Source of the DNA: Oceanotoga teriensis
Lineage (GTDB): Bacteria > Thermotogota > Thermotogae > Petrotogales > Petrotogaceae
Direction of reading: 5' to 3'
Length of the DNA: 54,762 nt
Assembly: GCF_003148465.1 (NCBI RefSeq)
Contig: NZ_QGGI01000001.1
Span: 1 to 54,762, forward strand
Under the pieces are notes generated by a model. The model was not told the DNA's origin, ran no database searches, and saw nothing but the letters and a program-made list of their open reading frames with translations. The position numbers and the translations under genes are program-made. Below are positions 17,500 through 49,899 of this stretch, one piece after another. The stretch's first letter is position 1. Each line of letters begins with the position of its first letter.

Positions 17500-17531
17500 A
17501 AAAAAGCAGTTCAAAATGAACTGCTTTTTTT
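17500..17531. terminator. Bidirectional terminator gpmA / amino-acid ABC operon
   Basis: AAAAAAGCAGTTCA / TGAACTGCTTTTTT with a 3-4 base loop lies between convergent genes, with A and T runs on both sides. Confidence 0.9.
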
Positions 17532-18252
17532 AATTAAAATATTTATCTATTAATTCTTTATATTTTCCATTTTCTCCTAATTTTTTTAAAGCATTATTTA
17601 TTTCTAACATCAAATTTTCATCATCTTTTCTAAAGGCTATTGCATAACTTTCTTTCAATGAATCAGTATTTACAACTTTTATACCTTCATTATTTTTTAT
17701 AATATTCTTAGCTGGTTCTGAATCTAATACTATAGCTTCAATTTTTCCATTTTTTAAATCTAATACAGCAGAATAAACATTTGAAAATCTTTTTAATATT
17801 GAATTATCTTTTTCTGTCATCAAAGCATCTCCAGTAAAACCTAAAACAACACCAACATTTTTATTTTCAAGATCTTCAAAACTTTTTATATAATTATTAT
17901 CTTCATTTATAATTATTACTTGTTTGGCTTCATAATAAGAATTACTAAAATTGACATTTTCTTTTCTTTCTTCAGTTTCGGTCATTCCTGCAATTACCAT
18001 ATCAACTTTTTTACTCTGTAAAGCTGGTAAAAGACCATCAAAGTCCATATGTATAACCTTTATTTCTTTATTTAATATATTTCCAACTTCATTTATTAAA
18101 TCTATATCAAAACCAACTATTTTATCTTTATCAAAATATTCAAAAGGAGGAAATTCAGCATTTGTTCCAACATATATAATATTATTCTCATTACATGAAA
18201 CTAAAAAAATAGCCATAATAGTCAATAAAATACTAAGTAAAAATTTTTTCAT
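17530..18252 (-). CDS. Amino-acid ABC transporter substrate-binding lipoprotein
   Basis: A 240-residue binding protein of SBP family 3. The N-terminus is a lipoprotein signal with lipobox LVSC, so Cys20 would be lipidated and the protein anchored outside the membrane. EFPPFEYFDKDKIVGFDIDL and the following ALQSKKVDMVIAGMTETEER are the polar-amino-acid family signature. Third gene of the operon after permease and ATPase. Ligand is not fixed by sequence; the Arg-coded leader upstream suggests arginine or another basic amino acid. Confidence 0.9.
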   Translation of the reverse strand: MKKFLLSILLTIMAIFLVSCNENNIIYVGTNAEFPPFEYFDKDKIVGFDIDLINEVGNILNKEIKVIHMDFDGLLPALQSKKVDMVIAGMTETEERKENVNFSNSYYEAKQVIIINEDNNYIKSFEDLENKNVGVVLGFTGDALMTEKDNSILKRFSNVYSAVLDLKNGKIEAIVLDSEPAKNIIKNNEGIKVVNTDSLKESYAIAFRKDDENLMLEINNALKKLGENGKYKELIDKYFN

Positions 18253-18266
18253 ATATCAACAACTCC

Positions 18267-18992
18267 CTATTTTAAATTAATTTTATTTAAGAAATCTAAA
18301 GTTCTTTTATTTTTTGGATTATTAAATAATATATCTGGTGATCCTTTTTCTATAATTTTTCCTTCATCCATGAACCAAATTTCATCTGATATATTTTTTG
18401 CAAAATTCATTTCATGTGTCACAATGAGCATAGTTATATCATCCTTGGATAAATCTCTTATAACATTCAAAACTTCTTGAACCATTTCTGGATCAAGTGC
18501 AGAAGTTGGTTCATCAAAAAGTATTATTTCAGGATTCATAGCCATAGCTCTCGCTATAGCTACTCTTTGTTTTTGCCCACCACTTAATTGAGATGGATAT
18601 GAATTTATTTTATCTAAAAGTCCAACTTTATCAAGTAATTCATATGCATTTTTTTCAGCTTCTTTTTGAGTTTTTAGGCCTAATAAAATCGGAGCCAAAA
18701 TTATATTATTTAAAACATTTTTATTGTTAAATAAATTAAAATTTTGAAAAACCATTGCTATATTTTTTCTTATATTACTAATATTTTTTTCATTTAAAAT
18801 ATTAGTGCCATTAATATATATTTCACCACTTTCTGGAATTTCTAATAAATTTATGCATCTTATTAAAGTTGATTTTCCAGAACCAGAAGGACCAATTATT
18901 GAAACTTTTTGACCTTTTCTAACTTCAATATTTATATCTTTTAAGATATGTTTATCAGAAAAATATTTATTTAATTTTTTTATTTTAATCAT
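18267..18992 (-). CDS. Amino-acid ABC transporter ATP-binding protein
   Basis: A 241-residue GlnQ/HisP-type ATPase. Walker A GPSGSGKST, Q-loop VFQNFNLF, signature LSGGQKQR, Walker B EIILFDEPTSALD and switch His in VTHEMNFA are all present. Its ATG overlaps the permease stop, and the binding-protein gene follows by 14 bases. It powers polar amino-acid uptake. Confidence 0.93.
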   Translation of the reverse strand: MIKIKKLNKYFSDKHILKDINIEVRKGQKVSIIGPSGSGKSTLIRCINLLEIPESGEIYINGTNILNEKNISNIRKNIAMVFQNFNLFNNKNVLNNIILAPILLGLKTQKEAEKNAYELLDKVGLLDKINSYPSQLSGGQKQRVAIARAMAMNPEIILFDEPTSALDPEMVQEVLNVIRDLSKDDITMLIVTHEMNFAKNISDEIWFMDEGKIIEKGSPDILFNNPKNKRTLDFLNKINLK

Positions 18993-19689
18993 TTACTTTC
19001 ATTCCTTTTTCTATTTTTTTCATTATCTTTGTAAAAATAAAAGTTAAAATTAAATAAATTATTCCAACTAATATTAAAGGTTCAATACCTCTATATGTCT
19101 GACTTGTTATAATCTTAGAAGAGGTTAATAAATCCATGCCGCCAATAAATCCTACAATTGAAGTTTCTTTAAGCAAAGTTATAAATTCACTTATCAATGT
19201 TGGTAAAATAATTTTAATGGACTGAGGTACTATTATATTCTTCATAGTCATAGAATAACTGAGACCTAATGAATATGCTGCTTCTTTTTGACCTTTATCA
19301 ACTCCTTGTATTCCAGATCTTATAATTTCAGAAACATAAGCAGATGAATTTATACCAAAAGAAATAGAAGCTATTATAAATATAGGTGTATTTTTAAGAT
19401 ATCCAACAAATATTAAATTTGCAAATATCATTAATTGAACAACAGCTGGTGTACCTCTTATTAGATTAACATATAATTCTCCTATTTTTTCTAAAGGATT
19501 TAGAAATATTCCCCATTTTTTAAAAGGGTGAAATTCAAACAATCTCAAAAAAGCAATTAATATTCCCAATCCTAATCCAATTAAAGCCGAAAAAAATGTA
19601 ACAGAAAGTGAAAAACCTAAACCTTTTAAAATATATAAATATCTTTCATTTTCTATAAAAATAAAACTCAAAGTTTCTAAATAATTCAT
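18985..19689 (-). CDS. Amino-acid ABC transporter permease
   Basis: A 234-residue HisM/GlnP-family inner-membrane permease with about five helices. The EAA loop reads GQKEAAYSLGLSYSMTMKNIIVPQSI, which docks on the ATPase. LIRGTPAVVQLM is a further family mark. First structural gene of the operon and the one directly behind the attenuator and the second micro-ORF. The ATG follows GAGAGGAGATTTTA. Confidence 0.92.
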   Translation of the reverse strand: MNYLETLSFIFIENERYLYILKGLGFSLSVTFFSALIGLGLGILIAFLRLFEFHPFKKWGIFLNPLEKIGELYVNLIRGTPAVVQLMIFANLIFVGYLKNTPIFIIASISFGINSSAYVSEIIRSGIQGVDKGQKEAAYSLGLSYSMTMKNIIVPQSIKIILPTLISEFITLLKETSIVGFIGGMDLLTSSKIITSQTYRGIEPLILVGIIYLILTFIFTKIMKKIEKGMKVND

Positions 19690-19712
19690 TAAAATCTCCT
19701 CTCAATATAAAT

Positions 19713-19754
19713 TTAATCTTTTTCATTATATTGAAAACTCCGTTTTTTAAACAT
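19713..19754 (-). CDS. 13-residue micro-ORF MFKKRSFQYNEKD
   Basis: A very short reading frame lies 23 bases upstream of the permease, after the attenuator terminator. It has one of the best ribosome sites in the window, AAGGAGGTATACAA-ATG, and contains a rare CGG arginine codon. Its core KKRSFQYN resembles RRRSFEMN in the first leader peptide. It may be a second translational leader controlling the permease, or a relic of a duplicated leader. Its function is unknown. Confidence 0.5.
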   Translation of the reverse strand: MFKKRSFQYNEKD

Positions 19755-19768
19755 TTGTATACCTCCTT

Positions 19769-19806
19769 ATATATAATAAAATGGAAGTCATACTAAGACT
19801 TCCAAT
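19769..19806 (-). terminator. Attenuator terminator (arms 3:4) in the amino-acid ABC leader
   Basis: On the minus strand TGGAAGTC, loop TTAGTAT, GACTTCCA is followed by TTTTATTAT. The stem's left arm (GGAAGTCTTAGTATG, 19803-19789) can instead pair with CATACTATTGACTTC at 19883-19869 inside the leader peptide gene, which would abolish the terminator. Confidence 0.78.
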
Positions 19807-19855
19807 TTTATATTAAAAATATATTTAGATATACAAAAATTAGTTCAAAAAATGA

Positions 19856-19933
19856 TTATAATGAACATGAAGTCAATAGTATGATAAAATAATTATTCAT
19901 TTCAAATGATCTTCGGCGATATCGCATTTTCAT
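19856..19933 (-). CDS. Arg-rich 25-residue leader peptide of the amino-acid ABC operon
   Basis: Encodes MKMRYRRRSFEMNNYF followed by IILLTSCSL, then TAA. Four of residues 4-8 are arginine, read by CGA, CGC, CGA and AGA; CGN codons are rare in this AT-rich sequence. The ribosome site AAAGGAGGAAATAGT is excellent. Codons after the Arg block overlap arm 2 of the attenuator, so a ribosome stalled on Arg codons would leave arm 2 free to pair with arm 3, while one reaching the stop would cover arm 2. That is the classical leader-peptide layout. Too short for standard gene finders. Confidence 0.78.
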   Translation of the reverse strand: MKMRYRRRSFEMNNYFIILLTSCSL

Positions 19934-19948
19934 ACTATTTCCTCCTTT
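19869..19948 (-). promoter_or_regulatory. Attenuator arms 1 and 2 (pause and antiterminator)
   Basis: Arm 1, AATAGTATGA (19939-19930), covers the leader start codon and is the exact complement of arm 2, TCATACTATT (19884-19875). Arm 2 extended (CATACTATTGACTTC) also complements arm 3 of the terminator (7 plus 6 pairs around a small internal loop). Thus 1:2, 2:3 and 3:4 pairings are mutually exclusive, as in trp- and his-type attenuators. Confidence 0.75.
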
Positions 19949-20007: not shown

Positions 20008-20469
20008 TTAAATCAAATTATCTATATTAATCATTTCAAGCAAAGATAAAGCGGCATCGAATCCTTTATTTCCAGATTTTAATCCTGATCTATTAAAAGA
20101 TTGTTCTAATGTATCTGAAGTTACAACTCCAAAACTTATAGGAATTTTAGAATTTAATGTTAAATGAGCTATTCCTTTTGAAACCTCATTTGAAACAATT
20201 TCAAAATGATATGTATCCCCTCTTATAATACATGCTAAAGCTATTATTCCATTATATTTTTCTGAATCTAAAATTTTATTACATAAATGTGGAATTTCAA
20301 AAGCTCCAGGAACAATATAAACATCTATATCCTCTTCTTTGACATCATGTCTTATTAAACAATCATTTGCACCTTTTAATAAATTATCTGTGATTGTAGA
20401 ATTAAACCTTGAAATTATAATTGCTATTTTTTTATTTAATCCATTATATTTACCTTCATATATATTCAT
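20008..20469 (-). CDS. ribH: 6,7-dimethyl-8-ribityllumazine synthase
   Basis: A 153-residue cytosolic enzyme joining the pyrimidine intermediate to 3,4-dihydroxy-2-butanone 4-phosphate. Family motifs are ISRFN, VPGAFEIPH, ACIIRGDTYHFE(I)VSNE with the catalytic His, and FGVVTSDTLEQ. The ATG at 20469 follows AAGGAGGTTATT; the upstream ATG at 20487 overlaps ribBA and lacks a site. Last gene of the riboflavin operon. No clear terminator follows before the amino-acid transporter leader. Confidence 0.95.
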   Translation of the reverse strand: MNIYEGKYNGLNKKIAIIISRFNSTITDNLLKGANDCLIRHDVKEEDIDVYIVPGAFEIPHLCNKILDSEKYNGIIALACIIRGDTYHFEIVSNEVSKGIAHLTLNSKIPISFGVVTSDTLEQSFNRSGLKSGNKGFDAALSLLEMINIDNLI

Positions 20470-20479
20470 AATAACCTCC

Positions 20480-21649
20480 TTAAACATTCAAATTATGATT
20501 AAATCTAATTTTTTTTGTTTTCAAATAAAATTCATTATATTCATTAATTTCTCCATATAGATTTATACTTTCTTCTATATCTATACCATACTTAGATAAT
20601 TGTTTTATTTTATCTGGATTATTAGTTAATAATTTTATTTTATTTACTTCCATAGCTTTAAGAATTTGAGCAGCATTTGAATAGTCTCTATTGTCTGCAG
20701 GTAGTCCTATTACCTCATTAGCATCATAAGTATCTACACCTTTATCTTGAAGAGCGTAGGTTTTAATTTTATTTGTTATTCCTATATCTCTACCTTCTTG
20801 TCTCATATAAATTAAAATCCCATCATTCTCTGATATGAACTTTAAATAATTATTTAATTGACTTCCACAATCACATTTTAATGAACTCATCACATCACCT
20901 GTTACACATTCAGAATGAACTCTCACATAAGGTATCTTATTATAAAAATCACCTTTTTTTATGACAAAATGTTCTTTTTTATCAAGATTATTTTTAAAAG
21001 CTATTATCTCAAATTCTCCATATTTTGTTGGAAGTTTTGCTTTTGAAACCATAAAAATATTTTGAACTCTTTTTATATATTCTTCATAAATTTCATCAAT
21101 AGTAATTACTCTAATTTGAAGTTCTTTTGCAAGATTTTCTATATATTTTAAATTATGAGACTCTCCATTATCATCTATTATTTCTACAAAAGAAGAAAAT
21201 CTTTTATATCCTAAAATACTCATTAATTCAATAGAAGCTTCTGTATGACCTTTTCTATTATTAAGACCTCTTCCACCAATCAAACTAACATGACCGGGAT
21301 AAGCAAAAAGTCCTATATTTGGATTTTCGGATAAAACAGATACAGTATTCGCTCTTTCAATAGAAGAAATGCCTGTATTTGAAAGCTTATAATCAATAGG
21401 AATAAAAAAATTTGTGGAAAATTTTTCTTTATTATTAGATGGAAGTTTTATAAAACCTCCATCCAAAAGGATATTTTCATCTGCTGCTGTACATAACAAT
21501 CCTCTACCTTTTTGTATAAATAAATTTATAATTTTTTCATCCATCAATTCAGATGGAAATACCATATCCCCTTCTATTTCTCTCTTAGTATCTAATATAA
21601 TAACCGGTTTACCTAATTCAAAATCTTTTTTTATATTTTCAATATCCAT
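20480..21649 (-). CDS. ribBA: Bifunctional DHBP synthase / GTP cyclohydrolase II
   Basis: A 389-residue fusion supplying both riboflavin precursors. The RibB half (about 1-200) makes dihydroxybutanone phosphate from ribulose 5-phosphate: REIEGDMVFPSE and GRGLNNRKGHTEASIELM. The RibA half (about 205-389) opens GTP: VRVHSECVTGDVMSSLKCDC with the zinc cysteines, and MRQEGRDIG. ATG at 21649 after GAGAGGTGAAAAGT is preferred to the ATG at 21667. Confidence 0.95.
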   Translation of the reverse strand: MDIENIKKDFELGKPVIILDTKREIEGDMVFPSELMDEKIINLFIQKGRGLLCTAADENILLDGGFIKLPSNNKEKFSTNFFIPIDYKLSNTGISSIERANTVSVLSENPNIGLFAYPGHVSLIGGRGLNNRKGHTEASIELMSILGYKRFSSFVEIIDDNGESHNLKYIENLAKELQIRVITIDEIYEEYIKRVQNIFMVSKAKLPTKYGEFEIIAFKNNLDKKEHFVIKKGDFYNKIPYVRVHSECVTGDVMSSLKCDCGSQLNNYLKFISENDGILIYMRQEGRDIGITNKIKTYALQDKGVDTYDANEVIGLPADNRDYSNAAQILKAMEVNKIKLLTNNPDKIKQLSKYGIDIEESINLYGEINEYNEFYLKTKKIRFNHNLNV

Positions 21650-22196
21650 ACTTTTCACCTCTCGCATATCTATTTAAAATATCAATTTCATAATTAACAT
21701 AATCATACATCTTCAAATCAAATAAATTTGTATTTAAATAAGTATGTGGAATAACTTGAATTACAAAAGAATCCATATATTTTTCGGCAATAGTCAAACT
21801 AATTCCATTTAGTGCAATTGCTCCTTTTCTTACAATTGCCCAATTTTCTTTTGGCATTTTAAATTCCATATAATAAGTATCAGAAATTTTCTTACAATTT
21901 AAAAATCTTATCATACCGTCTATATGACCAGTTACAATATGACCATCAAGTCTTCCATTAAACTTTAAAGCTCTTTCTATATTTAATTTTTTGGATATAT
22001 TAATATTTGTAATTTTCTTAGTCTCTTCTCCAAGTGTAAATTGCAATTTACTTTCTGATAAAGAATCTACAGTTAAACAAACTCCATTAAGGGCTATAGA
22101 ATCTCCTAATTTTATTTCTTTTGAAAAATTATTTATTACAATCTTATTGTTAAAAATATTAAAATCTGACTTTTTTTCTATTATTCCCGTAAACAT
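21639..22196 (-). CDS. ribE: Riboflavin synthase alpha chain
   Basis: A 185-residue enzyme dismutating two lumazines to riboflavin. It starts MFTGIIEK and shows the internal lumazine-binding duplication: GDSIALNGVCLTVD in the first half and GAIALNGISLTIAE in the second, with GHIVTGHIDG between. It is slightly short at the C-terminus compared with the usual 200-215 residues. It overlaps ribD by 16 bases and ribBA by 11, so the operon is translationally coupled. Confidence 0.93.
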   Translation of the reverse strand: MFTGIIEKKSDFNIFNNKIVINNFSKEIKLGDSIALNGVCLTVDSLSESKLQFTLGEETKKITNINISKKLNIERALKFNGRLDGHIVTGHIDGMIRFLNCKKISDTYYMEFKMPKENWAIVRKGAIALNGISLTIAEKYMDSFVIQVIPHTYLNTNLFDLKMYDYVNYEIDILNRYARGEKYGY

Positions 22197-23224
22197 CTTT
22201 TCAACTCCAACTTGATATTTTCTCCAATAATAAAACTATTCTTAATATGAAATTCTTTAATTTTTTTTAAATTTTCAAAAGGAGAAATACCTTTTCCAAA
22301 TATTTTATTACTAATATAAACATTTATTTCATCTGAATAATCATAAAATAAAGAAATTATTTTTCCGCCGCCTTCTACAAGTACAGAATTAATATCCATT
22401 TTATTTATTTCTTTCAAAATATTTAAAATACTAAAATCTTTTATATAAACAATTTTTGTTATTTTTGAATTACAAATATAATTTTTAGAATTAGTAAAAA
22501 TAATGTTTTTACCTGGAATATTAAATATATTAAAGTCAGTACTTTTTATATCAAAATCTTTATCAATTACTATTCTTATTGGAGAAATACCTTCTAAATA
22601 TCTTAAATTAAGTTTAGGATTATCTTTTAAAATAGTTCCAGCACCTACAAGAATAGATTGATATTTTTTTCTCATTTTATGAACATCAATTAAGGATTCT
22701 TTACATGTAAATCTACCTTTAATTGAATCATTATATATAAACCCATCTAAACTTTGTGCATATTTTATATTTATATATGGTATAGAATAATTCATACTTT
22801 TAATAAAAAATTTATTTAATTCTGTTATTTCATCTTTTAATATTCCTTCATCAACAATTACTCCATTTTTTCTGAGTTTTTCTATGCTTTTACCATTAAC
22901 TTTTGGATTAGGATCTTTGATCCCAATAAATACTTTTTTAAATTTATACTTTAATATTTCATCAACACAGGGAGGTGTTTTACCATAATGAAAACAAGGT
23001 TCTAAAGTTATATAAATATTTGAATCTTTTATCTCATGACCTTTTTTCAATGCATTTTTTATAGCATTTACTTCGGCATGATCACCACCAAAATATTTAT
23101 GATATCCTTTTGAAAGAATATGTCCATTTTTTTCTATAATTGCTCCAACCAAAGGATTAGGATTAGTATATCCAATAGCTTTTTTAGATTCTTCTAAAGC
23201 CATTCTCATATAAAATTCTTTAAT
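22181..23224 (-). CDS. ribD: Bifunctional riboflavin deaminase/reductase RibD, apparent AUU start
   Basis: A 347-residue bifunctional enzyme. The deaminase half (about 1-145) has TNPNPLVGAIIEKNG, HAEVNAI and the zinc-binding PCFHYGKTPPC. The reductase half has KYAQSLDGFIY and VLVEGGGKII. Family members begin like M-E-E-Y-Y-M-K-L-A-L; the matching residues here (KEFYMRMALEE) lie upstream of the first ATG (23209). The only start that includes them is ATT at 23224, immediately after an in-frame TAA and 8 bases from the end of a perfect GGAGG (23237-23233). The ATG at 23209 would be 23 bases away. First gene behind the FMN riboswitch. Confidence 0.9.
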   Translation of the reverse strand: MKEFYMRMALEESKKAIGYTNPNPLVGAIIEKNGHILSKGYHKYFGGDHAEVNAIKNALKKGHEIKDSNIYITLEPCFHYGKTPPCVDEILKYKFKKVFIGIKDPNPKVNGKSIEKLRKNGVIVDEGILKDEITELNKFFIKSMNYSIPYINIKYAQSLDGFIYNDSIKGRFTCKESLIDVHKMRKKYQSILVGAGTILKDNPKLNLRYLEGISPIRIVIDKDFDIKSTDFNIFNIPGKNIIFTNSKNYICNSKITKIVYIKDFSILNILKEINKMDINSVLVEGGGKIISLFYDYSDEINVYISNKIFGKGISPFENLKKIKEFHIKNSFIIGENIKLELKRCLRE

Positions 23225-23254
23225 TTAAATCACCTCCAAAATTTAAATATATAA

Positions 23255-23283
23255 CAAAAAACCCCGGATTTCTCCGGGGTTTA
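23255..23283 (-). terminator. Riboswitch-controlled terminator
   Basis: AAACCCCGGA / TCCGGGGTTT with a 4-base loop and a TTTTTTG tail lies between the FMN riboswitch and ribD. It is the expected expression platform: FMN binding favours this terminator. Confidence 0.9.
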
Positions 23284-23324
23284 AATTTATATAAATTGAA
23301 AAAATATATATAAATATACTTATT

Positions 23325-23433
23325 CTTCTTCTATCATCCAGACTTTACTGTCGGTTCCGGAATTACACCGGATCAACCAAAAAGGTTCGCGGACTTTACC
23401 GCCGGTCGGGAATTTCACCCTGCCCCGAAGAAG
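23325..23433 (-). promoter_or_regulatory. FMN riboswitch (RFN element)
   Basis: The minus strand carries the RFN consensus in order: closing helix P1 GAAGAAG / CTTCTTC, then GGGGCAGGGTGAAATTCCC, GACCGGCGGTAAAGTCCGCG, a variable stem, GATCCGGTGTAATTCCGG, ACCGACAGTAAAGTCTGGATG. All conserved bases I know are present. It senses FMN and shuts off the ribD-E-BA-H operon through the terminator downstream. Confidence 0.97.
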
Positions 23434-23445
23434 TGTTACACAAAT

Positions 23446-39655: not shown

Positions 39656-39690
39656 AAAAACGGTATGATTATAAATCATACCGTTTTTTT
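39656..39690. terminator. Bidirectional terminator opuA operon / MFS
   Basis: AAAAACGGTATGATT / AATCATACCGTTTTT with loop ATAA, symmetric, between convergent genes. Confidence 0.92.
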
Positions 39691-46803: not shown

Positions 46804-47990
46804 ACCCATGTAAATTCCATAGTTCTTTCGTATTTGATAAAGCTCGTTCATAGTAGATTTTGAGGAAAAATACTTTTGCATAAGGGTATTCTTTTTTTCT
46901 TGCAATTTATCAAGTTTATCTAAAATATTCTTTGAATCAGGCAGCTTTAAATAGGACTTTTTCAGTTTTACAAGAGCTGTTTCGTAGCGTGTGATTTCAA
47001 CCTTATGTTCCTCAAAAAATGCCTTATCGGAAGGATTTGATTTACATTCTTTGTAATAGGCTCGATATTTTTTAACAGTATGAACCTGCTCCATTGTATC
47101 AGAAAGTAGCTGCATATCCTTGTCAATTTCTTTGATTTTATCTTGTAAGTTCTGTCTTTCTTCAGCAGTTTTTTGAATGTATTCATCAAGTTTGCTTAAC
47201 AGATTTAATGCCATGTTCTCTTATAAAAACAACGGACTCAGCCATTGTGTTTAAGTTATGCTTGGTTGTCCAATACTCATAACCTTTGTTCTCTTTCACT
47301 TTGGCATTAGTATTCATATTATGACATTTCCGATTCGTTTTTTGACAGGAGGGGTTTTAATAACTTGATTTTCTGTAATACGCTCTTTTAATTTTTCTTC
47401 GGTATAATCTTCACCAATCGTCTTAGCCCTTGTAAATCTCTGCTTATCTTTTGGCTTAAAGGCTATATGTTTTCCATACTTTATTTCATAACCAAGTTCC
47501 GCCATCTTCTTTAGAAATTCTTCCCAATCATTAGACTGTTTTATCAAACGATCAATGTCAAATTGAAGTTTGCTTTTCCAAGAAGTACCTTTCTTAGACT
47601 GTTCATTTTCATACCATGACTTTCCACTAACCTTGCACTTTTTCTTATAAGCTTCATAAAATTCATCAATAACAGAAAGGTTGTTTTCTTTGCATAGCTT
47701 ATCACTTTGATACGTATTTGATGATAGCTCTTTTTATTAGATTGATAGCACTTGCCCGTTACCATATTTACATTAATATGGTTGTGGATATATCCTTTAT
47801 CTATGTGTGTAGATAAGACAAATTCGTACTCATCTTTTAATATCTTTTTACAAAGTTCAATACCAATTTGATGTGCCATTTCAGAACTTGTTTCTCCAGG
47901 CAAAAAGGACTGAATGAGATGTCTTGCAAGGATAATCCTATTTGTTCCTGAATCATTTCGTTTTCTTAAAAATTGAGTATGAGCATTTTC
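46786..47990 (-). pseudogene. MOBP-type relaxase of a Tn1549/IME-like element, multiply frameshifted
   Basis: Minus-strand fragments read in order: HLIQSFLPGETSSEMAHQIG (start region), ATHID-like STHIDKGYIHNHINVNMV (the HUH histidine motif of the relaxase), then KKMAELGYEIKYGKHIAFKP, the NKGYEYWTTKHNLNTMAESV segment at 47215-47313, and a coiled-coil tail to 46786. At least three frame changes (near 47740, 47545, 47315 and 47195) separate them, so the relaxase cannot be made. It normally nicks oriT for transfer. Convergent with the defence operon. Confidence 0.85.
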
Positions 47991-47991
47991 C

Positions 47992-48112
47992 TGTCATTTA
48001 TATCATCTTTATAGATTACATCGGTCGAATTTACTTGCTTCGCAATTTAATTGATGTTTTTTGTAGCATTGGAAAGTAAGCCTTGTAAATCCCTGAATGG
48101 TTCTAAATCCAT
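47992..48112 (-). pseudogene. MobC-like mobilisation protein, C-terminal remnant
   Basis: Reads MDLEPFRDLQGLLSNATKNIN, then a stop in place of Gln or Asn, then IAKQVNSTDVIYKDDI, the typical MobC end (IAKRVNSTGSIY-like). It lies directly upstream of the relaxase remnant, as in intact mobilisation modules. Confidence 0.72.
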
Positions 48113-48160
48113 TATTGAATTAAAATTCAATATTATTCAGTTTTGAAAAGAGATTTACTT

Positions 48161-48325
48161 ATGTCTGAAAAAGAATTATCAAAAAAAGTGATTGAAAAAA
48201 TTGAAGAAATAAAATATGAAAATAATATTATTTTCATATCAATTGATAAAAATTTAAAGTCAACTAAGAAATATATATACTCTACTGATGAGAAAAAACT
48301 ACTTACTTTTTTCAATAGATTATGA
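48161..48325 (+). CDS. Small hypothetical protein
   Basis: A 54-residue Lys-rich frame (MSEKELSKKVIEKIEEIKYE...) that I do not recognise. The first part would form a helix and the rest a short strand pair. The start at 48161 is preceded by GAGATTTACTT, a weak site; an alternative ATG is at 48143. It ends 25 bases before the left copy of the 120-bp repeat. May be a remnant. Confidence 0.3.
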   Translation: MSEKELSKKVIEKIEEIKYENNIIFISIDKNLKSTKKYIYSTDEKKLLTFFNRL

Positions 48326-48349
48326 TGGACACTTTGTAAAAATAATGAT

Positions 48350-48470
48350 AAGAATATTAAACACATTGTATTTCATTGTTATAATATAGTGGGTATACTT
48401 AACCATTAAAATTAAATTCAACGATTGGCATAGCAAAGTATATAAAATTTGTTCCAATAATAATAATTCC
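48350..48470. repeat. 120-bp direct repeat, left copy
   Basis: Almost identical to 49962-50079: two substitutions and one extra TAA. Read on the minus strand it encodes the end of a small membrane segment (GTNFIYFAMPIVEFNFNG) and stop, as the right copy does next to the ABC-2 permease gene. The two copies flank a small membrane-protein frame and the DUF5131 gene. Confidence 0.92.
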
Positions 48471-48782
48471 TCATTATCGTTGAAAAAACAAGCTATACCT
48501 GACCAGCATACCTATTAAGAAAAGTAAATTTATAAAATAGTTACAGATATGCAAATTGAAGAATTTGGATTATTTTTTCATTCTTTTAATTATATATAGA
48601 ATTTGGCCAAGAAATATGGAACGGTTTTTTTTGATGCCTTGGCTCTATTGCTTAGAGACTAATTGATTTGATATAACGAATGATTTTAATGTAGCTTTAT
48701 TCTTTGCAACTTGAAAAACAGACAGTAATACTAAAAAATCATTAAAAATACATATGTAAATTTGAACTAAAGGAGGAACATT
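48471..48782. other. Non-coding stretch inside the repeat-flanked block
   Basis: No gene is seen. There is an inverted GCCAAG / CTTGGC pair around 48604-48648 and AT-rich filler. Confidence 0.4.
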
Positions 48783-48793
48783 ATGAATATTTT

Positions 48794-48988
48794 ATGGGAA
48801 GTTTGATGTTATTAATTGGTCTTTTTCTATTTGTATCATCAATTAAAAAAAGTAAATTTATCATATACAAAACCCTTGTCGATAGAAGCAAAAGTTTATG
48901 GGGAGAAAATGTACATACTTTTTTCATAGCAGTAGGTATTGTCATCATGGGATTAAACTCATTGTTCTTTTTAAATATCTGGGGGTAA
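48794..48988 (+). CDS. Small two-helix membrane protein, start probably frameshifted
   Basis: A 64-residue hydrophobic protein with two membrane helices (MGSLMLLIGLFLFVSSI and TFFIAVGIVIMGLNSLFFL) and a basic loop between. The ribosome site AAAGGAGGAACATT and ATG at 48783 are in a different frame, which hits TGA after seven codons; one extra base there would explain it. It is either translated from the weak ATG at 48794 or inactive. Family unknown. Confidence 0.45.
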   Translation: MGSLMLLIGLFLFVSSIKKSKFIIYKTLVDRSKSLWGENVHTFFIAVGIVIMGLNSLFFLNIWG

Positions 48989-49176
48989 TATATATTTGAA
49001 TTCTTAGATTATCATAAACAATTGCGATAGAAAATGATTATTTACACTAATTATAGATTTGCTATTATAAATATTTTGAGGTAAATAATAACTTATAAGA
49101 ATTTGGATGAAAAAGCAAATAAAAAACTGATTCTAAATAGACACCACAAAATTCACTAAATAAGGAGGAGTTCTCA

Positions 49177-49899
49177 ATGAATTGGGAACCATGGACAGGT
49201 TGTTACAAAATTAGTGATGGGTGCACATATTGTTATTTTTATGGACCTCATGCAAAACGATATGGTCAAAATATCATAAAAAGAACAGATAAATTTGATT
49301 GGCCCATAAAAAAAGATACCAAAGGGGAATACAAAATTAAAGGAAACAAAGTTCTTGCAACATGTTTTGCAACTGATTTTTTTCTTTCTGAAGCAGATGA
49401 ATGGCGTAAAGAAGTTTGGGCTATCATCAGGGAAAGAACAGATATAGAATTTTTAATTTTGACAAAACGAATTGACCGTTTTCTTGTATCACTTCCATCA
49501 GATTGGGATACTGGATATGACAATGTAAATATTGGTTGTACTGTTGAAAATCAAATGCTGGCTGATTATAGACTTCCATTATTTTTATCTTATCCGATAA
49601 AGCACCGTTTTATTGCATGCGCTCCGATCTTAGAAGCAATAGATCTAACATCCTATCTTCATGGAGTAGAGCATGTTACAGTTGGTGGTGAAACAGGCCG
49701 AGAAGCTCGCGAATGTGATTATGATTGGGTACTTAATATCCGTAAACAGTGCATAAAAGCAAATATAACATTTTGGTTCAAAAATACAGGTTCATTTTTT
49801 AAACATAATGGAATAGTGAAAAAAATAAATCCTTTTAAGCAATCTAATATGGCGAAAAACCTTGGCATAAATATTTCAGAAGAGAAAAAATTATTTTAA
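49177..49899 (+). CDS. DUF5131 / phage Gp37-Gp68 family protein
   Basis: A 240-residue protein of the Gp37/Gp68 family common on phages and mobile elements. MNWEPWTGCYKISDGCTYCY gives the Cys-x7-Cys-x2-Cys cluster typical of the family and reminiscent of radical-SAM iron-sulfur sites. VGGETGREARECDYDWV and FWFKNTGSF are further family marks. The biochemical role is unknown. AAGGAGGAGTTCTCA precedes the ATG. It lies inside the block bounded by the 120-bp repeats, so it may have been inserted or moved as a unit. Confidence 0.85.
   Translation: MNWEPWTGCYKISDGCTYCYFYGPHAKRYGQNIIKRTDKFDWPIKKDTKGEYKIKGNKVLATCFATDFFLSEADEWRKEVWAIIRERTDIEFLILTKRIDRFLVSLPSDWDTGYDNVNIGCTVENQMLADYRLPLFLSYPIKHRFIACAPILEAIDLTSYLHGVEHVTVGGETGREARECDYDWVLNIRKQCIKANITFWFKNTGSFFKHNGIVKKINPFKQSNMAKNLGINISEEKKLF

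Follow-up and report, generated by a model that had tools for sequence, protein, structure and literature searches.

A predicted arginine-responsive transcription attenuator with a second short leader ORF upstream of an amino-acid ABC transporter operon in Oceanotoga teriensis

On the minus strand of an Oceanotoga teriensis contig (NZ_QGGI01000001.1, positions 1 to 54,762; this whole stretch of 54,762 nucleotides is called the window below), a gap of 318 bases lies between the ribH stop (20008) and the start of an amino-acid ABC permease gene (19689). Does this gap simply end the riboflavin operon, or does it decide, through a leader peptide with tandem arginine codons, as the initial annotation had it, whether the transporter genes are transcribed? 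Our analysis points to the second answer: the gap probably holds a trp/his-type, arginine-responsive transcription attenuator upstream of the ABC operon. This prediction is built on the sequence, on pairings beyond chance, on codon rarity and on computed switching, with the leader presumably transcribed and translated and charged tRNA-Arg presumably the signal. A promoter search from ribH to the leader returned no convincing candidate. The leader starts as follows:

19941..19947, minus strand: ribosome site AAGGAGG of leader ORF 1 (sequence reading, SD scan)
19856..19933, minus strand: leader ORF 1, 25 codons, MKMRYRRRSFEMNNYFIILLTSCSL (ATG at 19933, TAA at 19858-19856)
19910..19924, minus strand: control codons CGA TAT CGC CGA AGA, codons 4-8, with Arg at codons 4, 6, 7 and 8

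Every element quoted in the initial annotation, among them the 25-codon leader, its strong ribosome site and the codon run CGA TAT CGC CGA AGA, was found where it had been placed; what that description missed was a second SD-led ORF (leader ORF 2) and a stem lying partly over the ribosome site of that ORF. Both ORFs are preceded by a canonical AAGGAGG site, the two sites lying within 180 bases of each other. Across the 44 genes of the window, arginine makes up 2.7% of codons, and CGA, CGC and CGG account for 2.9%, 1.0% and 0.7% of arginine codons. Three of the four arginine codons in leader ORF 1 (CGA, CGC, CGA, AGA) are thus the rare CGA or CGC, which together supply ~4% of arginine codons. 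Taking codon usage in genes as the null hypothesis, four arginines among nine codons have a binomial probability of ~6e-5, and the three rare arginine codons in leader ORF 1 one of 2e-7. At least four arginines in codons 2-10 were found in 3 of 529 short ATG ORFs (window, any frame), two of the three being leader ORF 1 itself. Genome-wide (2.79 Mb), the pattern SD-ATG-CGVCGV occurs three times and, with reading frames judged by eye, is in frame at leader ORF 1 only.

The genes that this leader would control are the following:

18985..19689, minus strand: amino-acid ABC permease (HEQRo family)
18267..18992, minus strand: amino-acid ABC ATPase
17530..18252, minus strand: family 3 solute-binding lipoprotein, whose best solved relative is presumably the T. 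maritima arginine-binding protein
17500..17530, minus strand: intrinsic terminator closing the ABC operon (terminator scan)

Judged from its relatives, the operon probably imports arginine. The best PDB matches of the binding protein are 6svf and 4prs of T. maritima, which we take to be the arginine-binding protein of that organism (the PDB titles call them amino acid-binding proteins), and the reconstructed AncQR comes second. The Lys/Arg/Orn subfamily model fits the binding protein best, with a score below the cut-off, and the best models for the permease and ATPase are those for cystine and glutamine. The permease shares 63-64% identity with Lachnospirales (the order of the Epulonipiscium record) versus 33-42% with relatives in its own phylum, and the gene order in Lachnospirales is binding protein-permease-ATPase, whereas in O. 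teriensis the binding protein comes last. Therefore, the transporter operon was likely acquired by horizontal transfer.

An outside source of arginine would probably be needed by this organism, since no true ArgG (argininosuccinate synthase) was detected in the 99.9% complete genome while all of the 14 controls were positive; O. teriensis is thus likely an arginine auxotroph. The sole ArgG match (21.5 bits, below the cut-off) lies in a 520-residue frame and appears to be a different ATP-pyrophosphatase. In the same family, several other genera carry an unmistakable ArgG, with scores above 200 bits. ArgR was not detected in the O. teriensis genome or in 30 relatives, with T. maritima positive in the same search. 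It is plausible for a likely arginine auxotroph with no detectable ArgR to carry such a switch.

These properties of the genome and operon help in weighing a different role for the codon cluster, namely, that of a speed bump made of rare codons, through which ORF 1 would respond to overall translation or to a shortage of Arg tRNA, and not to arginine in the medium. Three of the four arginine codons are very rare in the genome and might therefore be decoded slowly even in cells that are not starved. However, the clustered residue is the very one that the transporter looks built to import and that the organism likely cannot make, and we regard a general speed bump as unlikely.

Downstream of the control codons, the RNA can be divided into arms that compete for one another:

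19930..19945, minus strand: arm 1, overlapping the AUG of leader 1 and most of its ribosome site (folding, shuffles)
19869..19884, minus strand: arm 2, within the 3' part of leader ORF 1, partner of arm 1 or arm 3 (folding, shuffles)
19788..19804, minus strand: arm 3, 5' arm and loop of the terminator, partner of arm 2 or arm 4 (folding, shuffles)
19782..19789, minus strand: arm 4, 3' arm of the terminator (terminator scan, shuffles)
19774..19781, minus strand: U-rich tail TTTTATTA of the terminator (sequence reading, terminator scan)

Arms 1 and 2 pair as AATAGTATGA with TCATACTATT (19939-19930 with 19884-19875), and in folding this hairpin is extended by GGAG/CTTC (19945-19942 with 19872-19869), so that it also covers the ribosome site and AUG of leader 1 itself. 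The 2:3 pairing, which would act as antiterminator, has 14 pairs and a small internal loop (19884-19877 with 19795-19788 and 19874-19869 with 19802-19797), and the 3:4 pairing has eight (19804-19797 with 19789-19782), followed by the U-rich tail. Duplex energies are -18.0 kcal/mol for 1:2, -17.4 kcal/mol (shuffle comparison) or -21 kcal/mol (folding) for 2:3 and -12.9 kcal/mol for 3:4. The three mutually exclusive pairings proposed in the initial annotation held up against dinucleotide shuffles, with 0 of 1000 at least as strong in each case, and the whole region 19950-19690 folds with z = -5.0. The terminator stem (19804-19782) and its U-tract stand ahead of the permease, the first gene of the operon; the stem contains only four G-C pairs, and the U-tract is interrupted.

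For each of 30 terminator-like sites on both strands of the window, pairing of the 5' arm and loop with the 160 bases upstream was compared with shuffles. The strongest competing upstream pairing was that of the leader terminator (z = -3.4), and the second was that of the FMN riboswitch terminator (23282), which served as an unplanned positive control. An SD-led short ORF stands upstream of three other terminator-like sites, none of which has a competing pairing. Two other attenuator candidates were rejected: that at 584(+) lies inside a gene, and that at 39656(+) is a terminator between convergent genes. In a search of the window with Rfam at the gathering score, nothing matched at the leader (T-box included), and the sole match was the FMN riboswitch (23322-23436).

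The site comparison also bears on whether the hairpin is the plain terminator of the upstream riboflavin operon, with short ORFs that are accidental. Immediately upstream, on the strand that also carries the leader, stands the rib operon (ribD-ribE-ribBA-ribH), whose end is at 20008. No clear promoter separates ribH from the permease. Since no other terminator-like site was found between these two genes, transcription of the rib genes may continue into the leader. A plain terminator, however, needs neither a 14-pair antiterminator nor a protector hairpin, both of which exceed all shuffles, and the combination of a competing pairing with an SD-led short ORF occurs at this site alone among the 30 in the window. 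The cluster of rare arginine codons and the two canonical ribosome sites so close together would likewise go unexplained, which makes this reading, in our judgement, quite unlikely. The leader terminator may serve both as the end of the rib operon and as part of the attenuator.

How the arginine attenuator would respond to translation was computed by folding the leader with a ribosome footprint on each codon, assumed to extend 12 bases behind and 16 bases ahead of the first P-site base; all folds are equilibrium rather than co-transcriptional ones. At 37 C, the 1:2 pairing and the terminator both reached at least 0.99 when no ribosome was present, the antiterminator reached 0.97-0.98 with the P site at codons 2-5 (which puts Arg codons 4 and 6 at the A site or close to it), and the terminator returned to at least 0.99 once the ribosome was past codon 13, stop codon included. 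A moderately thermophilic relative would grow at about 55 C. At this temperature, the tested positions gave 0.94-0.95 for the antiterminator versus 0.98-0.99 for the terminator, and switching by ribosome position persists across 37-60 C. Of the initial annotation, the trp/his-type scheme holds up, as do the tandem Arg codons and the identification of an amino-acid ABC operon, and the logic of the scheme works in silico over this range. For a stall at codons 6-11, the outcome depends on arm 1: the terminator wins if arm 1 is free to pair around the ribosome with arm 2, and the antiterminator reaches 0.8-0.95 (37 C) if arm 1 is barred from doing so. Since stalls at codons 6-11 can restore the 1:2 pairing and the terminator, the first two arginine codons alone would be unambiguous sensors.

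In the predicted mechanism, a ribosome would translate ORF 1 as RNA polymerase extends the leader, and three outcomes are possible: (i) when arginine is scarce, the ribosome would wait at the arginine codons (4 and 6-8) and mask arm 1, the 2:3 pairing would form in place of the terminator, and the permease, ATPase and binding protein genes would be transcribed; (ii) when arginine is plentiful, the ribosome would run into arm 2, the 3:4 pairing would form and transcription would stop at ~19775; and (iii) when the leader is not translated, arms 1 and 2 would pair and the terminator would also form, leaving the operon off by default.

Between the terminator and the permease lie further features:

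19762..19768, minus strand: ribosome site AAGGAGG of leader ORF 2 (sequence reading, SD scan)
19713..19754, minus strand: leader ORF 2, 13 codons, MFKKRSFQYNEKD, with a rare CGG (19742-19740) as its sole Arg codon
19827..19852, minus strand: 5' side of an outer stem, able to pair with the ribosome site and start of ORF 2 (folding)
19743..19764, minus strand: 3' side of the outer stem, comprising half of ribosome site 2, the start codon and the first codons of ORF 2
19699..19737, minus strand: weak hairpin (19737-19726 with 19710-19699) over the 5' half of the permease ribosome site

The outer stem has a duplex energy of -18.0 kcal/mol, with none of 1000 dinucleotide shuffles as strong, and the hairpin at the permease site is weak, being equalled by 31 of 1000. 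In the terminator-bearing fold, the ribosome site and start of ORF 2 are paired with 19852-19827; because the outer stem crosses the 2:3 pairing, the antiterminator fold would free this site. The computed effect is partial, the unpaired value of site 2 rising from 0.40 to 0.71 at 37 C and from 0.43 to 0.64 at 55 C. The sequestered fold is favoured at equilibrium once the transcript is complete, even with a stalled ribosome, so release of the ORF 2 site would have to be kinetic. The two leader peptides align as YRRRSFEMN/FKKRSFQYN (score 29, shuffle p = 0.0008), their shared R and S being encoded by different codons. A pattern for the shared stretch matched in 33 of 390 genomes, mostly once per genome, and only the O. 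teriensis genome has two in-frame copies behind ribosome sites, ~170 bases apart. The ORF 2 peptide also resembles MKRTFQPN matches from the same search, which we take to be the N-terminus of ribosomal protein L34.

ORF 2 likely has a role, and, less firmly, we infer that it adds translational control of the permease. Alternatively, it could act by simple reinitiation, which has been proposed for leader genes generally (PMC4833913), although 23 bases to the permease start is a long distance for such a mechanism. More tentatively still, the tandem related leaders might form a two-stage arginine switch, in which ORF 1 controls termination, the antiterminator fold frees the ORF 2 site, passage or stalling at CGG opens the permease site and the stretch common to both peptides (YRRRSFEMN/FKKRSFQYN) may have an effect of its own inside the ribosome tunnel; such a switch would have arisen in an ArgR-less lineage after the transporter genes came from Lachnospirales-like bacteria.

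The nascent chain of the speF leader in Salmonella senses ornithine. That the nascent chain of ORF 1 (and ORF 2) stalls in a similar way on a ligand such as arginine or ornithine, by means of the stretch that both peptides have in common and independently of tRNA charging, would agree with the peptide alignment, the motif pair found in one genome of 390 and the conserved RR core of the speF leader ORF (PMC6386406), but we think such an arrest peptide very unlikely, given only two copies in one genome, homologues not found elsewhere and rare arginine codons already explained by tRNA sensing.

Where the attenuator came from was approached through related loci. An Arg-rich short ORF with a terminator was present at none of 59 related-permease loci (Lachnospirales and the phylum), the window being recovered as a control, so the leader seems local to the O. 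teriensis lineage. Inheritance of the leader with the operon was rejected because no such leader stands at the loci of the nearest permeases (63-64% identity, Lachnospirales). No leader-like DNA match was found in 103 genomes of the phylum, and the four DNA matches to the leader that were followed up all lay inside genes, for instance, a glycosyltransferase-like gene of the same genome, and were judged to be AT-rich chance matches. A scan of 121 genomes with the pattern SD-ATG-[KR][KR]RSF gave candidate RRSF-type small ORFs elsewhere; the eight loci examined, the best-looking matches included, proved to be N-termini of longer genes (such as MYKKRSF in a branched-chain permease), unrelated genes or out of frame.

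All testable sequence-level features of trp/his-type attenuators are present in the O. teriensis leader. Like the trp, his and leu leaders, it has clustered cognate codons, alternative 1:2, 2:3 and 3:4 pairings, an intrinsic terminator and a default off state without translation; unlike them, it concerns arginine, an uptake operon and another phylum, and it has a second SD-led ORF after the terminator. The tandem leader is possibly a variant of this known scheme. Two short leader ORFs also occur in Salmonella mgtCBR, whose leader signals are related to Mg2+, proline and ATP. In the abstract of the mgtCBR study (PMC3641672), these ORFs precede a transporter operon controlled by attenuation, and arginine sensing is not described there.

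Arginine-sensing leader ORFs have been reported for Salmonella speF (PMC6386406) and S. aureus rbfL (PMC13009471). The speF leader orf34 is likewise a short ORF with consecutive arginine codons, slow reading of which at low arginine alters RNA folding, and it also acts at more than one level of control, as the O. teriensis leader may; its Rho-dependent termination, RNase G, masking of the ribosome-binding site, decarboxylase target and DUF2618 conservation are its own (PMC6386406). Identity with the speF leader was rejected, since the HIRRT..HIMM core (PMC6386406) is absent from both O. teriensis peptides and the operon encodes an ABC transporter. In rbfL, rare arginine codons in a leader ORF also sense arginine restriction, but control there is exerted on translation only and represses at low arginine, the next ribosome site being blocked by the paused ribosome (PMC13009471).

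A location outside Proteobacteria, which the initial annotation pointed out, would not in itself be novel, as leader-peptide attenuators have been reported, besides those of Proteobacteria, in Actinobacteria (PMC1262725) and in hisS leaders of Firmicutes (PMC2965389), the latter study also listing 205 candidate attenuated ABC transporter genes. Full-text literature searches, with most subscription papers outside their scope, found no case described in Thermotogota. A broad prediction survey cited in PMC4833913, Lopatovskaya et al. 2010 (Mol Biol 44:128), may include this phylum. If the prediction is true, trp/his-type attenuation would extend to arginine uptake and to a phylum for which we found no described case, and an attenuator would have been built on a transporter operon apparently from another phylum, in an organism with no ArgR and probably no arginine synthesis. 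The tandem related leader peptides, if real, would make it possible to tell codon sensing cleanly apart from sensing by the nascent peptide.

Among neighbouring features of the window, the riboflavin operon directly upstream (20008-23436, minus strand) carries its own FMN riboswitch (23436-23322) and riboswitch terminator (23282-23259). Farther away are a relaxase-like fragment (47903-47544, minus strand) and an NWEPWTGC...-type protein (49177-49899, plus strand), which presumably resembles phage Gp37/Gp68-type proteins; together, these two suggest a mobile element at 47544-49899.
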